Source of the DNA: Geomonas silvestris
GTDB lineage: Bacteria > Desulfobacterota > Desulfuromonadia > Geobacterales > Geobacteraceae
Assembly (NCBI RefSeq): GCF_014193515.1
Contig: NZ_BLXX01000002.1
Span: forward strand, 310,001 to 374,000
Reading direction: 5' to 3'
DNA length: 64,000 bases
In this document: positions 659 through 50,766 of the stretch, piece after piece
Layout: each line of letters begins with the position of its first letter
Numbering within the stretch: the stretch's first letter is position 1
The notes under the pieces: model-generated
Database searches by the model: none
What the model was told of the DNA's origin: nothing
Seen by the model: the letters and a program-made list of their open reading frames with translations, nothing else
Program-made: the position numbers and the translations under genes

Positions 659-2332
659 CTACTTTGCTTCGGTTGCCGGTGCTTGGGGAATGGCCGGATG
701 ACCTGCCGGCAGACCCTGTGCCGGTGCGGCTTCGGCCGGTGCTGCCGCCGGTACCGCTGCAGGGGCGGCCTCCGGTAGTGCCGGAGCGACTGCCGGAACT
801 GCTGCCGGTGCGGCTACGGTGTTCTGGGCCACCATCTTCTTGCCGTTTACCTGGGCGATCATCTTGTCAAGCGAAGGAGCCATGGTGTCTATGAAGGGGC
901 GCGGGTAGACACCCATGAAGAAGATCAGGAAGACCAGCGGCACCATGATGGCGATCTCGCGGGCGTTCAGGTCTTTCAGGTTCTGGTTCTTCGGGTTGTT
1001 GAGCTCGCCGAACATCACCCTCTGGAACATCCAGAGCATGTAGACCGCGGAGAGGATGACGCCCGAGGTGGCGATGATGGCATAGACTTTAAGCGGGCCG
1101 TTGAAGGCGCCCAGAAGGACCAGGAACTCGCCCACGAAGCCGTTGGTGCCCGGAAGCCCTATGGAGGAGAAGGTCACGATCATGAAGATGGTGGCGAAGA
1201 TCGGCATCTGCTTCGCGAGACCGCCGAAATCGGAGATCTGGCGGGTGTGACGCCGCTCGTAGATGAAGCCAACGATAAGGAACAATGCGCCGGTGGATAC
1301 GCCGTGGTTCAGCATCTGCAGCATCCCGCCGGAGAGCCCCTGCTGGTTCAGGGCGAAGACCCCCAGCATGACGAAGCCTAGGTGGGCAACCGAAGAGTAG
1401 GCGACCAGTTTCTTAACATCCTGCTGCACCATGGCGACCAGCGAGGCGTAGATGATGCCGATCACGGAGAGGGTGGCGATGAGCGGGGTGAACTGGGCGG
1501 TGGCGTCCGGGAAAAGCGGCATGGCGAAGCGGACGAAACCGTAGGTACCCATTTTCAGCAAGACGGCTGCCAGGATGACGGAGCCTGCGGTCGGCGCCTC
1601 GGTGTGGGCATCCGGCAACCAGGTGTGCAGCGGGAACATCGGGACCTTGATGGCGAACGCCAGGGCGAAGGCCAGGAACATCCAGGTCTGGGTGACCGGG
1701 TCGAGGTGCAGATCCCAGAAGCGCAGGATCGAGAAGTCGCCCTGGCCCCCCTTGAAGTAGAGGGCGATGAGCGCGATCAGCATGAGCAGCGAGCCGACCA
1801 TGGTGTAGATGAAGAACTTGACCGCCGCGTAGATGCGGTTCTTGCCGCCGAAGATACCAATCATGAAGTACATCGGGATCAGCATCACTTCCCAGTAGAT
1901 GTAGAAGAGGAAGAGGTCGAGGGCCACGAAGGCGCCGATCATGCCGACCTCGAGGAGGAGCAAGAGGATCATGTACTCCTTCACCTTCTCCTCAACCGCG
2001 GTCCAGGTGGAGAGGATGGCGATCGGCATGATGAAGGTGGTCAGGATCACGAGCCAGAGGCTGATACCGTCGATCCCCACGTGGTAGCTCATCTGGAAGG
2101 GGCCAGCGGCGATCCAGGGCACCTTCTCGAGGAACTGGAACCCGCCCACGTCGGTACCTGCGGCGTTGTAGCCGGAGATCAGGGGCAGCGAGGCGAGGAA
2201 GTTCACCACCGACACCGCCAAGGCAACGGTACGGAGCACGCCGTGGCTGTTCTTGTTCACAAAGAGGAGGACGAGCGCCCCAATCAGCGGTGTGAAGGTT
2301 AATATGCTCAGTAACGGTAGCGTCTGGCTCAT
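659..2332 (-). CDS. nuoM: NADH-quinone oxidoreductase subunit M
   Basis: Antiporter-like proton-pumping subunit of complex I, 557 residues with about 14 membrane helices. Typical family stretches include the first-loop HVGIDGISLWLV, the WEVMLIPMYFMIG helix with its conserved glutamate, and PLHTWLPDAHTEAPTAGS with the channel lysine region after it. The start ATG follows AAGGAG at good spacing. Unusual: after the last helix (around residue 495) the protein continues for about 60 residues of mostly alanine and proline (MVAQNTVAAPAAV onwards). This tail is not part of the NuoM fold and makes the protein longer than the usual 490-510 residues. It lies between nuoL and nuoN. Confidence 0.96.
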   Translation of the reverse strand: MSQTLPLLSILTFTPLIGALVLLFVNKNSHGVLRTVALAVSVVNFLASLPLISGYNAAGTDVGGFQFLEKVPWIAAGPFQMSYHVGIDGISLWLVILTTFIMPIAILSTWTAVEEKVKEYMILLLLLEVGMIGAFVALDLFLFYIYWEVMLIPMYFMIGIFGGKNRIYAAVKFFIYTMVGSLLMLIALIALYFKGGQGDFSILRFWDLHLDPVTQTWMFLAFALAFAIKVPMFPLHTWLPDAHTEAPTAGSVILAAVLLKMGTYGFVRFAMPLFPDATAQFTPLIATLSVIGIIYASLVAMVQQDVKKLVAYSSVAHLGFVMLGVFALNQQGLSGGMLQMLNHGVSTGALFLIVGFIYERRHTRQISDFGGLAKQMPIFATIFMIVTFSSIGLPGTNGFVGEFLVLLGAFNGPLKVYAIIATSGVILSAVYMLWMFQRVMFGELNNPKNQNLKDLNAREIAIMVPLVFLIFFMGVYPRPFIDTMAPSLDKMIAQVNGKKMVAQNTVAAPAAVPAVAPALPEAAPAAVPAAAPAEAAPAQGLPAGHPAIPQAPATEAK

Positions 2333-13698: not shown

Positions 13699-14211
13699 TT
13701 ACGCAGCCGGCTCGAGCCTTTCGCCCATACCGATGGAGGAACCGAAGGAGTTCTTCTCCTTCATGATCTTGTCCTGCAGCTTCATCAGGCCGTAGAGCAG
13801 CGCCTCGGGGCGCGGCGGGCAGCCCGGGATGTAGACGTCGACCGGGAGGGCCTCGTCGATCCCCTGTACTACCGAGTAGGTATCGAAGATGCCGCCGGAG
13901 CAGGCGCAGGCGCCCATGGCGACCACCCACTTCGGTTCGGGCATCTGCTCGTACACGGTCTGGATCACCGGAAGCATCTTCTTGGTGACCGTGCCGGCGA
14001 TGATGATGCAGTCGGCCTGGCGCGGGGAGGCGCGGAAGATGATGCCGAAGCGGTCGAGGTCGTGCTTGGCGGCACCGGTCGCCATCATCTCGATGGCGCA
14101 GCAGGCCAGACCGAAGGTCATCGGCCAGATGGAGGACTTCCGGGCCCAGTTAACCAGACTGTCCAGGGAAGTCGTGATGATGTTATCGCCGAGCGGATTA
14201 TCTACTCCCAT
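13699..14211 (-). CDS. nuoB: NADH-quinone oxidoreductase subunit B
   Basis: Subunit holding the terminal [4Fe-4S] cluster N2 that reduces quinone, 170 residues. The adjacent cysteines C37-C38 ([10 protein letters not shown]), the later GACACSGG and the [12 protein letters not shown] motif supply the cluster ligands. The start is the ATG at 14211 ([10 protein letters not shown]), overlapping the nuoA stop by ten bases, which implies translational coupling. An open frame continues upstream but is only the shadow of nuoA. Confidence 0.97.
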
Positions 14212-14558
14212 TCCAGTGCTCCTTTTTTCCAAACGTATACGTAGCCTACGAAGAGGATGACGATGAAGATGCCCATCTCGATGAGGCCGAAGACGCCGAG
14301 CTTCTTGAAGAGCACGGCCCAGGGGTACATGAAGACGGCCTCGATGTCGAACAGGATGAAGAGCATCGCAATCAGGTAGAACTTGACGGAGAAGCGCTCG
14401 CGGGCGCTGCCCACCGGATCGCAGCCGCACTCGTACGGTTGGAGTTTGACCTTAGACGGTTTTTTCTGCCCGATGAGCGATGAGAAGATCACCGACCCCA
14501 GGCCGAACAAGACCGCTATGACTACCAGCACCAAGATTGGCAGATACGCACCAAGCAT
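14202..14558 (-). CDS. nuoA: NADH-quinone oxidoreductase subunit A
   Basis: Three-helix membrane subunit of complex I, 118 residues, first gene of the operon. Conserved [21 protein letters not shown] (here with a cysteine in the loop) and the acidic [11 protein letters not shown] helix identify it. I use the ATG at 14558 ([10 protein letters not shown]), because GGGAGGATAGGG stands just before it and the length then matches the family. Two in-frame ATGs further upstream lack such a site. The start is about 155 bases downstream of a sigma-70-like promoter. Confidence 0.95.
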
Positions 14559-14613: not shown

Positions 14614-14832
14614 CGTATACTGCGTCGATTCCTGCCCTGCAGTTCCCTTTTTCCCCGTCGTTTTTTTCCCGACGAGATCCCGACGCAAGTATACTGTATA
14701 CAAAAAGCGCTTAAAAATTATTTCATTCCTTGCTCTTTGTCAAGCAGAAAATATTTCAATTCTTTTGCGAACTTCTGCCTCTGGAGACCCCCGAAATCAG
14801 CAAAACGACGTTACTATTTGGAGCACGTATAC
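14614..14832. promoter_or_regulatory. GTATAC palindromes in the nuo control region
   Basis: Four copies of the palindrome GTATAC lie here: 14614-14619, the close pair 14689-14694 and 14696-14701 (one base apart), and 14827-14832. The pair sits just downstream of the predicted nuo -10 box, near the expected transcription start, where a bound repressor would block RNA polymerase. The same motif recurs before both atp operons (18196, 18282, 46747, 46755). HgtR of Geobacter is known to repress nuoA and atpG; assigning this site to it is inference. Confidence 0.6.
14715..14743 (-). promoter_or_regulatory. predicted nuo operon promoter
   Basis: On the minus strand TTGACA (14743-14738) and TAATTT (14720-14715) are separated by 17 bases, a good sigma-70 arrangement. 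Transcription would start near 14707, leaving a leader of about 150 bases before nuoA. The leader contains two GTATAC sites at its start and one at 14614. Confidence 0.6.
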
Positions 14833-18195: not shown

Positions 18196-18287
18196 GTATA
18201 CACTTTTTGCTCTAATGGTCGGAAATTGATTGACATTCGCAGTGTTACCATGCTATTTAGCCTAAGTTTCTGCCGTTGGGCGTATAC
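18196..18287 (+). promoter_or_regulatory. atpZ-I-B promoter with flanking GTATAC sites
   Basis: TTGACA (18230-18235) is followed after 18 bases by TATTTA (18254-18259), an acceptable sigma-70 promoter. One GTATAC palindrome (18196-18201) is upstream of the -35 and another (18282-18287) is downstream of the start region, about 20 bases before the atpZ start. The arrangement mirrors the nuo and second atp control regions. Confidence 0.55.
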
Positions 18288-18307: not shown

Positions 18308-18586
18308 ATGGATGAGGAGAAGAAGAGCCTCCTGAAGACCCTCGGCATGGTCTCGACCATGGGGATCTCGTTTGCGGTGGCCATCGCGATCGGGGTCTGG
18401 ATCGGGACCGAGTTGGACGCCTGGTTTTTGAGGAAACAGTGGCCGGCGGTGACCTGGCTGGCGGGCAAGCACGGATTTTTCTTCATCTTTCTCTTTTTCG
18501 GCATTGCGGCCGGCTTCCGCAACATCTTCATTCTTGCGGGAAAAGAACTGCGCGATGACGGGTCAGACCAAGATAAACGAGACTAA
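18308..18586 (+). CDS. atpZ: AtpZ-type F1Fo ATP synthase assembly protein
   Basis: Short two-helix membrane protein, 92 residues, of the AtpZ/AtpI family encoded ahead of Fo genes. These proteins assist assembly of the c-ring and Mg2+ supply to the ATP synthase. Two hydrophobic helices (about residues 12-32 and 53-77) with GVWIGTELDAWF and FFGIAAGFRNIF between and after fit the family. GAGGAGGT lies before the ATG. Its 3' end overlaps atpI by 32 bases. Function rests on family and position. Confidence 0.78.
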   Translation: MDEEKKSLLKTLGMVSTMGISFAVAIAIGVWIGTELDAWFLRKQWPAVTWLAGKHGFFFIFLFFGIAAGFRNIFILAGKELRDDGSDQDKRD

Positions 18587-46188: not shown

Positions 46189-46614
46189 TTACAGACTCCT
46201 TCCGAGTACTTTTTCGCAGATATCGGCGGACAGGGCCTCGGCGCTCGCCTTCAGGGCAGCGCGGGCTTCCTCGGCTTCCTTGGCGACCTTGGCCTTGATG
46301 GAAGCGAGCTTCTCGGTCGACTCCTGACGGGCCTTCTCGAGGATGGCGGCTTCCTGAGCCTGCGCTTCCTTCTTAAGGACAGCGCGCTCGTCGGCGGCGC
46401 CGGAGCGGATCTCGCGCAGGCGGGCCTCGTAGCTGGCCATCTTCTCCTGCACCTCGCGATCAACGGCAGCGCTCTTCTCTTTAGCGCCGGCGATCAGCGC
46501 GGCCCGGTCGGCAAGATGCTTCCTGATCGGCTTGTACAGAAAGACGTTCAAAAGCAGCACCAGGACCAGGAAGTTCACCAGCTGGAATACAAATGCGATG
46601 TCTAAATTGATCAC
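46189..46614 (-). CDS. ATP synthase Fo subunit b'
   Basis: Second peripheral-stalk subunit, 141 residues, with one N-terminal membrane helix (IAFVFQLVNFLVLVLLLNVFLY) and a coiled coil rich in alanine, lysine and glutamate. Paired b and b' genes make a heterodimeric stator. I favour the GTG at 46614 (GAGG seven bases upstream) over a TTG one codon earlier. It is the first gene of the second atp operon. In Geobacter sulfurreducens the orthologue has been called atpG and is reported as an HgtR target. Confidence 0.93.
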   Translation of the reverse strand: MINLDIAFVFQLVNFLVLVLLLNVFLYKPIRKHLADRAALIAGAKEKSAAVDREVQEKMASYEARLREIRSGAADERAVLKKEAQAQEAAILEKARQESTEKLASIKAKVAKEAEEARAALKASAEALSADICEKVLGRSL

Positions 46615-46688
46615 CAATCCACCTCTTGTTGAACATTTTTAAAGCGCTTGCTCACCCGCACCAAATCCGCGGTGCGCAAAACAGGTGG

Positions 46689-46746: not shown

Positions 46747-46760
46747 GTATACACGTATAC
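46747..46760. promoter_or_regulatory. paired GTATAC palindromes before the second atp operon
   Basis: GTATAC-AC-GTATAC, itself almost a palindrome, lies about 29 bases upstream of the predicted -35. The same doubled motif, one base apart, stands at the nuo promoter (14689-14701), and single copies flank the atpZ promoter. Confidence 0.6.
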
Positions 46761-49148: not shown

Positions 49149-49560
49149 TCCTGACCGCGTCGCGGAGTCCCGGGGAAGTACGATCTTTAGCTGGCAAAAG
49201 AGTCCTCACGTCCCCCCCTTTGCAAAAGGGGGGATTCGCTTTTAGCCTTCCCTGCGCTCTCCAGCGGTCGCAACTCTGGCTCAACCCCTTCTGCCGCCGC
49301 GTATTCGCTAGCGTTCCCACGCTCCGGCGTGGGAACGCTAGCCGGGGACGCTCCAGCGCCCCCTTTTTTTGGCACCGAAGCAACCACCCAGGCATGCGTC
49401 GCAAGCCCCGCCTCCCCAATGAAGAGCAGCTCCCCCACCCTCCAACCATCCTGCCACGCGACGGCCGGACTTCTTATCCCCTTAACATCCCGTACTCCTT
49501 GCGCATCCTACCACCTCCGGTATACTTGCCCTGGCTAATTAACCGCCTGCCGGAGGGTGC
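49149..49560. repeat. 412-base gap with two strong inverted repeats
   Basis: No gene seen. CCCCCCTTT-GC-AAAAGGGGGG (about 49212-49233) could end the cytochrome transcript. A perfect 16-bp stem, GCTAGCGTTCCCACGC (49307-49322) with GCGTGGGAACGCTAGC (49327-49342) and loop TCCG, follows; TTCCCACGC-type palindromes are a known kind of dispersed repeat in proteobacteria. A GTATAC lies at 49520-49525, upstream of the next gene. Confidence 0.75.
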
Positions 49561-50766
49561 ATGCCCCGCTTTGCCGATCTGCCGATTCGCAGCAAGTTCA
49601 ATATCCTGCTCTCCCTGTTGTTGCTGGTCCTCTTTCTTGCCTCCGCCCTCTTCACCTACCAGCGCCAGAAGAGTTTCGTGCTGCGCTTTGCCGTCGACAA
49701 CGCCCGCAACTTCGCACGCCAGCTCGTCGAGACCCGCGACTACATGTCCAGCGTGGTAAGAGGCGAGCCGGAGCAGAATTACAACCTGGTGCCGCAGGTG
49801 GTGGCGACCCAGGTCGCCAAGCGCGTCACCCAGAACACCAAGTACTACCTGCGCCAGGTCTCGCTGCGCTACCGCAACCCACAGAACAGTCCGGACGCCT
49901 ACGAAGCCGAGCAGCTCAAGAAGTTCGCCCACGAGTCCCGCCCCCGTGAGGTGTACGGCGTCCTGGAATCCGATGGGAAGCAGGTCTTCCGCTACCTGCA
50001 GCCGATGATCGCCACCCAGTCCTGCCTTGAGTGCCACGGCACCTACCAGTCCGCACCCGATTTTGTCCAGAGGCGCTTCCCGCCGGGGCACTACTCCTAC
50101 AACTACAAGGTGGGTGAGGTGATCGGGGCGGTATCCGTCACCATCCCGATGCAGGACCTCTACGCCGGGCTGGGGGTGAATTTCCAACTCGACCTCGCCA
50201 CCCGGGGTGCGGTCTTCTTCCTGATCATCCTGATCACCGGCATGGTGCTGCGCCGCCAGATCATCGACCCGGTCAAACTCCTCTCGGAAGAGATCACCCA
50301 TGTCACGAAGACCGGCGACTTCGAGCACAAGCTCCCCAGTCACGCCAACGACGAGATCGGCCAAACCTTCACCGCCTTCAACGACATGATGGACGAGCTG
50401 GCGCGCCGCACCCTGCAGTCGCGCGAGGCGGACGAGCGCTACCGGCTCTTCATCGAACTCTCCAACTCGGCGGTAGCCACCTTCCTGCAGGACGGCAAGA
50501 TCGTCATCGCCAACCAGAAGGCCGAGGCCCTCTTCGAGCGTTCGCGCCAGTCGCTCCTGGGGGAGTCCCTCTTCGGCTTCCTGCAGGACGACGAGCTGTT
50601 CCGCAGGCTCCTGGCTCCCGGCATGAGGGGTAAGGAAGAAGACGTGCCGGTCACCGTGCGCGGCAGCAAGGGGAAGCTCACCGAGGTGCTGGTCTCCGTC
50701 ACCGCCTCGCGCACCGACCGGGAGCCGATGTTCACCGCCATTTTGCGCGAGAAGGAGACCACGTGA
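49561..50766 (+). CDS. heme-c sensor: periplasmic DUF3365-like domain, HAMP and PAS, no output domain
   Basis: Membrane sensor of 401 residues. TM1 at about 14-33; a periplasmic domain (34-210) of Tll0287/DUF3365 type with a heme-c motif CLECH (155-159); TM2 at about 216-232; HAMP (about 233-285) with PVKLLSEEITHVTK; then a PAS domain (about 290-400) ending TASRTDREPMFTAILREK. It stops there: no histidine kinase, GGDEF or methyl-accepting region follows. GGAGGG precedes the ATG. The next gene begins 31 bases on. Sensing redox state or a gas through the heme is inferred from related sensors. Confidence 0.85.
   Translation: MPRFADLPIRSKFNILLSLLLLVLFLASALFTYQRQKSFVLRFAVDNARNFARQLVETRDYMSSVVRGEPEQNYNLVPQVVATQVAKRVTQNTKYYLRQVSLRYRNPQNSPDAYEAEQLKKFAHESRPREVYGVLESDGKQVFRYLQPMIATQSCLECHGTYQSAPDFVQRRFPPGHYSYNYKVGEVIGAVSVTIPMQDLYAGLGVNFQLDLATRGAVFFLIILITGMVLRRQIIDPVKLLSEEITHVTKTGDFEHKLPSHANDEIGQTFTAFNDMMDELARRTLQSREADERYRLFIELSNSAVATFLQDGKIVIANQKAEALFERSRQSLLGESLFGFLQDDELFRRLLAPGMRGKEEDVPVTVRGSKGKLTEVLVSVTASRTDREPMFTAILREKETT

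Follow-up and report, generated by a model that had tools for sequence, protein, structure and literature searches.

The paired GTATAC motifs found upstream of nuoA (complex I) and of the ATP synthase b' gene of Geomonas silvestris are very probably operators of a single, autoregulated transcription factor of the FadR subfamily, which has a GntR-type winged helix-turn-helix and an FCD domain and whose gene is referred to here as gntR. The stretch of DNA analysed, hereafter the window, comprises 64,000 nucleotides (C2:310001-374000 of genome G000). It contains 11 GTATAC sites (14235, 14615, 14689, 14696, 14827, 18196, 18282, 34298, 46747, 46755 and 49520), eight of which fall in three control regions (nuoA, atpZ and b'), exactly where the initial annotation had placed them. 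That annotation had expected about eight sites in the window, which was too generous: the shuffled window contained 1.49 on average and 6 at most (100 shuffles), and the rate in the whole genome (200 sites in 5.115 Mb vs. 139 for the pattern read backwards) predicts 2.5 per 64 kb, so that 11 sites have a Poisson probability of approximately 6e-5. The single GTATAC is thus mildly frequent throughout the genome but dense in the window.

The eight control-region sites are heterogeneous. They consist of two close pairs, 14689/14696 before nuoA, separated by one base, and 46747/46755 before b', separated by two, and of four isolated boxes (14615, 14827, 18196 and 18282). The relevant features, read from the sequence with additional evidence in parentheses, are as follows.

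14205..14558, minus strand: nuoA, complex I chain 3, without the stop codon (PF00507, 2.4e-41)
14615..14620, minus strand: single GTATAC in the nuoA leader, a putative weaker accessory box
14689..14701, minus strand: paired operator GTATAC-N-GTATAC, a palindrome of 13 bp that follows closely on the predicted transcription start of nuoA (also before nuoA orthologues)
14715..14720, minus strand: predicted nuoA -10 element (TAATTT), spaced 17 bases from the -35 element (in part by inference)
14738..14743, minus strand: predicted nuoA -35 element (TTGACA), which precedes the start of the operator by 42 bases
14827..14832, minus strand: isolated GTATAC that precedes the predicted nuoA start by approximately 120 bases
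18196..18201, plus strand: single GTATAC upstream of the atpZ promoter
18282..18287, plus strand: isolated GTATAC within the leader of atpZ, ending up 26 bases ahead of its ATG
18308..18586, plus strand: atpZ (ATPase_gene1; PF09527, 2.4e-11)
46192..46617, minus strand: ATP synthase b' gene, without the stop codon (PF00430, 1.3e-17)
46747..46760, minus strand: operator pair preceding the b' gene, its boxes separated by two bases (pairs also before b' in other genomes)

It is the close pair with a spacer of one or two bases, and not the single GTATAC, that is the distinctive element. When spacers of 0 to 6 bases were allowed, seven pairs were found in the G. silvestris genome, all with spacers of 1 or 2, while the reversed control gave none. 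These pairs precede nuoA, atp b', gltA, the gene for monomeric isocitrate dehydrogenase (icd), an sdhC/frdC-like gene (divergent from tgt) and genes for a porin-like protein and a bestrophin; the sdhC-like, porin-like and tgt genes had no Pfam match at 1e-5 and were named from their sequences only. A site before gltA (citrate synthase), whose presence the initial annotation had proposed to check, is therefore present: the pair lies 134 bases ahead of the gene (L004), and a third box follows at a distance of 15 bases. In a scan of the window with a softened weight matrix, no pair except that of nuoA scored above the shuffle maximum (25.4 vs. 13.7; three mononucleotide shuffles); the b' pair went unscored because the matrix models a 1-base spacer.

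Pairs with spacers of 0 to 6 bases occur in 108 of the 117 genomes of the order. Those with a 1-base spacer occur in 104, and the reversed control was found 0 times in 112 genomes and once in each of the other five. To identify the genes that follow, 15 genomes of 15 genera were surveyed together with that of G. silvestris, which yielded 80 sites at 79 loci; the 15 other genomes contributed 73 of the sites, compared with 2 matches to the reversed pattern. Genes of the TCA cycle, complex I and ATP synthase, cydA or the GntR/FCD regulator gene follow the pair at 63 of the 79 loci (a reference gene start within 450 bases of the pair), although some single-case targets are assigned by construction, since the references were drawn from the very loci counted, and many target proteins are cut at the locus end, with some scores under curated cut-offs. 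Counted by genome (n = 16), the targets are nuoA in 14, monomeric icd in 13, gltA in 8 (9 loci), gntR in 8, sdhC in 6, b' in 4 (L023, L130, L147 and L161 being the loci in other genomes that we noted with pairs before b'), acnB in 3, succinyl-CoA:acetate CoA-transferase in 2, and fumA, malic enzyme, dimeric icd and cydA in 1 each. Among the remaining 16 loci, 10 have no assigned gene, and at 6 the pair is followed by glyQ or by a gene for a ferritin-like protein (without an NCBIfam match), a cytochrome, a porin or a bestrophin. Of 27 further loci, 4 have no pair with a 1- or 2-base spacer, and 19 of the other 23 precede genes of the same set. The suggestion of the initial annotation that proton pumping and ATP synthesis share a regulator is well supported for nuo and b' and weak for atpZ, which has only single boxes, while the regulon appears to be wider than supposed and to include much of the oxidative TCA cycle.

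Conservation in relatives, another check proposed at the outset, was evaluated as well. In 30 genomes chosen independently of the nuoA promoter, the pair precedes 25 of 27 nuoA orthologues, the exceptions being G009 and G012; three of the surveyed genomes have distant nuoA copies only, with no pair before them. Of 19 Geomonas genomes, 17 have the atpZ-leader box at -24 to -26; the 11 other genomes all lack it, one of them having boxes elsewhere. The box at 18196 is found at the same place only in G. silvestris and G058 (30 atpZ regions). The atpZ box is conserved within Geomonas only; that it was kept while its flanks diverged in the lineage of G. silvestris is a hint of selection, but a single box is weak evidence. 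The single box in the nuoA leader recurs at -60 to -67 from the ATG in L256, L258 and L260. It is plausible that the single boxes of atpZ, of the nuo flanks (14615 and 14827) and of hgtR, described below, are weaker sites.

The consensus of 86 exact pairs with a 1-base spacer is tTGTATAC-W-GTATACAa, in which the boxes are fixed by the search, whereas the centre and the flanks are not; the central base is A or T in 96% of them. The distance from a TTGAC element to the operator varies little within several targets: 20 bases at icd (15 of 15), 12 bases at gntR (15 of 16), 20-22 bases at acnB (6 of 6), 38-49 bases at nuoA (20 regions scored) and 72-80 bases at b' in four genomes. At gltA (12 regions) and sdhC (7 regions), no TTGAC was found within 80 bases before the operator. 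The gntR site usually lies between TTGAC and a TACAAT-like -10 element. The operators so located span the core promoter or the beginning of the transcript, in agreement with repression. At b', the operator of G. silvestris (L003) lies upstream of the likely promoter, and in L023, L130, L147 and L161 it lies downstream of a TTGAC promoter; judging from the sequences, this is site turnover in which the target was kept and the position changed.

The evidence that points to the GntR/FCD regulator as the binder comes mainly from its own gene, a recurring target of the pair that is divergent from a potassium-channel-like gene. The gntR gene of G. silvestris is located on the same contig outside the window (G000:C2:172030; L197:12030 onward), and its operator has one mismatch. 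Among 69 gntR loci, 10 duplicates were dropped, and all of the 59 distinct regions have the palindrome within 250 bases upstream of the gene, matching 10 or more of the 12 core bases. Over the longer motif, 57 of the 59 score at least 13 of 16, as compared to 84 of 1380 random 250-base windows, which were drawn from the same gntR loci, so that some contain real sites. The palindrome was also found at 13 genes that are 50-59% identical and come from elsewhere in the phylum, where gntR was detected in 71 of 395 genomes (at 1e-45); the putative FCD repressor thus appears, by homology, to be conserved well beyond the order.

The domain content of the regulator agrees with this assignment. Its N-terminal part matches the GntR winged helix-turn-helix (PF00392, 2.1e-19) and its C-terminal part FCD (PF07729, 6.7e-26), and its predicted model has a mean pLDDT of 88.7. 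The operator consensus given for the FadR subfamily is NyGTM-N0-1-KACNy, with a 2-base spacing listed for PrpR and others, and a considerable number of family sites are described as having further boxes 7-12 bases away from the centre (PMC4494728). The GT-AT-AC core, itself fixed by the search pattern, fits this consensus, and its flanks are A/T-rich. A site at the regulator's own gene, common but not required in the subfamily, is present, from which we infer that gntR is autoregulated.

Co-occurrence of the regulator and the operator points in the same direction. The pair with a 1-base spacer is found in 97 of 97 genomes with gntR and is absent from 13 of the 20 genomes without it, a correlation that is not independent proof, because few clades are involved and a hydrogenase-like activator (see below) is missing in nearly the same ones. 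Seven genomes have one to four pairs despite no detected gntR: G029 (2 pairs), G059 (1) and G078 (2), which are 96-100% complete; G036 and G105 (1 each); and G040 (3) and G099 (4), which are 81 and 78% complete, respectively. Since co-occurrence is undecided between gntR and the activator, it is the operator at the promoter of gntR itself that decides. G009 possesses gntR and lacks the activator; its sole pair is located at gntR and none is found at nuoA. Genera g4 (8 genomes) and g6 (2 genomes) have neither gntR nor the activator in any of the ten genomes, as if the whole circuit had been lost together, and G036 and G060, the two of these genomes whose nuoA was inspected, have only distant copies of it (best identity 39 and 43%, respectively).

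The nearest solved structures are those of PmiR/PrpR (PA0797) of Pseudomonas aeruginosa (PDB 7xp0 and 7xp1), with which the regulator shares the FadR-subfamily fold: the phmmer match has an E-value of 1.5e-31, and 7xp0 and 7xp1 are the top two Foldseek hits (34-35% identity). Like the regulator proposed here, PmiR represses a TCA-like pathway from an operator of the form GT-N2-AC (PMC9765439). The operator predicted there for PmiR, ATTGTCGACAAT, is a single 12-base palindrome, in contrast to the two GTATAC boxes found here. PmiR also differs in regulating propionate catabolism, whereas the targets of the GntR/FCD regulator belong to the core TCA cycle. As stated in the title of one paper, PmiR reportedly binds 2-methylisocitrate. 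By analogy with PmiR, which is named for sensing this compound, the signal of the GntR/FCD regulator is probably a tricarboxylate of the TCA cycle.

We propose that the regulator binds GTATACTGTATAC DNA, in which the two GT-AT-AC boxes, set at a distance of 7 bases or sometimes 8, could be occupied by two dimers or by the halves of one assembly. As a repressor, it would block RNA polymerase: the palindrome fills the space between the predicted -35 and -10 elements of gntR, overlaps the predicted -10 element at icd and acnB, and lies just past the predicted start at nuoA, all of them positions suited to a repressor. The genes so regulated would be those of much of the oxidative TCA cycle (gltA, acnB, icd and sdh/frd), complex I and the split ATP synthase operon, which fumA, succinyl-CoA:acetate CoA-transferase and malic enzyme may join in some genomes. 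If this reading is true, central metabolism and proton pumping are tied to one switch. Geobacter and its relatives couple acetate oxidation to metal reduction and to electrodes, and TCA flux sets their current and growth; with an operator, a regulator and a conserved gene set at hand, the throttling of the TCA cycle becomes directly testable.

A GntR regulator of G. sulfurreducens, GSU3370, was reported to bind the gltA promoter, its role being described as little known, in a 2023 article (PMC10599522) that cites Ueki and Lovley (2010). The gltA of G. silvestris carries the pair, which is found before gltA in 8 of the 16 surveyed genomes. We consider gntR the probable orthologue of GSU3370, on the basis of gene order and target and not of the GSU3370 sequence: five genes, named from their sequences as selA, ispD, ispF, glnS and cysS, separate gntR of G. 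silvestris from an hgtR-like ribbon-helix-helix gene, matching the five tags from GSU3370 to GSU3364, which makes the orthology very likely. A chemosensory-like cluster is inserted between the two genes in two other genomes. In the open-licence literature, which excludes the 2010 HgtR paper, nothing was found on an operator or a wider regulon beyond the gltA-binding statement.

HgtR (GSU3364), the hydrogen-dependent growth transcriptional repressor, is described as repressing gltA, atpG (the b' gene) and nuoA (PMC7726332), and all three carry the GTATAC pair in G. silvestris. A sigma-54 activator gene upstream of GSU3364 and a predicted RpoN promoter have also been reported (PMC2725144). The ribbon-helix-helix gene found here has both the adjacent sigma-54 activator and the sigma-54 promoter and is probably hgtR; its product would thus be a ribbon-helix-helix protein, not a GntR protein. 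It should be noted that this protein has approximately 60 residues and that its matches to ribbon-helix-helix families are weak (PF01402, 15.4 bits; PF19807, 20.9 bits; both under the cut-offs), as is its predicted model (mean pLDDT of 76.8), which was not used as evidence of fold. The activator gene, adjoining the probable hgtR, is located as follows.

L063:1021-3303 (G000:C2:179762-182044), minus strand: sigma-54 activator with an N-terminal [FeFe]-hydrogenase-like domain, whose cluster cysteines are conserved

The activator contains ferredoxin-like clusters, an [FeFe]-hydrogenase large-subunit domain, an FeS domain and the sigma-54 activator domain. When 28 of the 30 activator loci were searched, the three cluster-binding loop patterns were matched in 28, 26 and 26, respectively. 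Loop 1, as assigned with the help of alignments, has a His where catalytic enzymes carry a second Cys. The activator adjoins the ribbon-helix-helix gene at 28 of 30 loci of that gene, and the small gene is present at 29 of the 30 activator loci. These features make the activator a candidate hydrogen sensor. It occurs in 97 of 117 genomes, 96 of which have pairs; 8 of the 20 genomes without it also have pairs.

It is only slightly less probable than not that both proteins act at the same promoters, the GntR/FCD regulator at GTATAC and HgtR at another or overlapping sequence during growth on hydrogen, which would be compatible with the explanation preferred here. Such a dual arrangement would account for the coincidence of the published HgtR targets with the GTATAC targets and for the proximity of gntR and the probable hgtR, and the statement that GSU3370 binds gltA cites the HgtR paper as its source (PMC10599522). 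A search for a second sequence argues against it, as the best 25 of the exact 7-base words common to the seven target groups were the -35 sequence, A-runs and purine-rich words. A candidate second site noticed near the nuo and b' pairs of the window, AAGCGCTT, was rejected: it was found in only 2 of 27 nuoA regions, 1 of 5 b' regions and none of the other five groups. On a more tentative and somewhat less probable view, Geobacterales have a two-layer switch, in which a tricarboxylate-sensing FCD repressor would act at gltA, acnB, icd, sdh, nuo and atp, while a hydrogenase-like, hydrogen-sensing activator would switch on HgtR to act at the same pathway. The two layers may be wired together, since boxes of the FCD-repressor type also occur upstream of hgtR. 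The hydrogenase-like sensor domain of the activator beside the probable hgtR offers a proposal for how hydrogen sensing turns the cycle down.

That HgtR itself, the small ribbon-helix-helix protein encoded beside the sigma-54 activator, binds the GTATAC boxes was at first the favoured explanation, because the ribbon-helix-helix gene and the hydrogenase-like activator fit the description of GSU3364. Dimers of ribbon-helix-helix proteins such as MetJ can recognize short boxes that recur at intervals of 7-8 bases, and the box spacing observed would suit such a protein. The three known HgtR targets (PMC7726332) all carry the pair in G. silvestris, GTATAC boxes precede the small gene in 44 of 59 regions (mostly from Geomonas and near relatives, with related genomes counted more than once), and the activator gene co-occurs with the pairs almost as well as gntR does. 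However, 115 of 117 genomes encode the probable HgtR protein (counting paralogues), including 11 of the 13 genomes that lack a pair of 1-base spacing, and the upstream regions of its gene have single boxes and no close pair, with no GTATAC at all in 15 of 59. By contrast, the palindrome fits a FadR-subfamily site and lies upstream of every distinct gntR examined. Because of this palindrome and because the small gene does not follow the pairs, HgtR as the direct binder was set aside and is considered improbable. The regulatory signal recognized by the initial annotation is real and its role was well guessed, but in naming HgtR the annotation chose, as far as the evidence goes, the wrong protein, as the palindrome tracks the GntR/FCD gene. 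That the pairs, unlike perhaps some single GTATAC boxes, are merely -10 elements (TATAC) or chance is hardly credible: TATACT and TACAAT do resemble -10 hexamers and some operators overlap a predicted -10 element, but the two-box palindromes have a conserved A/T centre, lie downstream of the predicted start at nuoA and at four b' genes, are nearly unmatched in the reversed control and are absent from most genomes without the regulator.

Several further observations were made. The region upstream of hgtR has a TGTGCC...GGCACA inverted repeat, with variations, and a -24/-12 element, both kept in an alignment of 23 of the 59 regions, which included divergent ones; the sigma-54 pattern matched 43 of the 59. 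In most Geomonas genomes, the GTATAC upstream of hgtR lies near -160 and often at -118 (L063, about 826-1000, minus strand). In the window, the single GTATAC at 49520-49525 is located approximately 40 bases ahead of an open reading frame that starts at 49561. A formate-dehydrogenase-like gene and the sigma-54 activator gene divergent from it are separated by a region with two GTATAC sites 47 bases apart (L061:849 and 896). In L012 and L013, from two genomes of one genus, the pair precedes a gene for glyceraldehyde-3-phosphate dehydrogenase, which suggests a lineage-specific extension of the regulon to glycolysis/gluconeogenesis.
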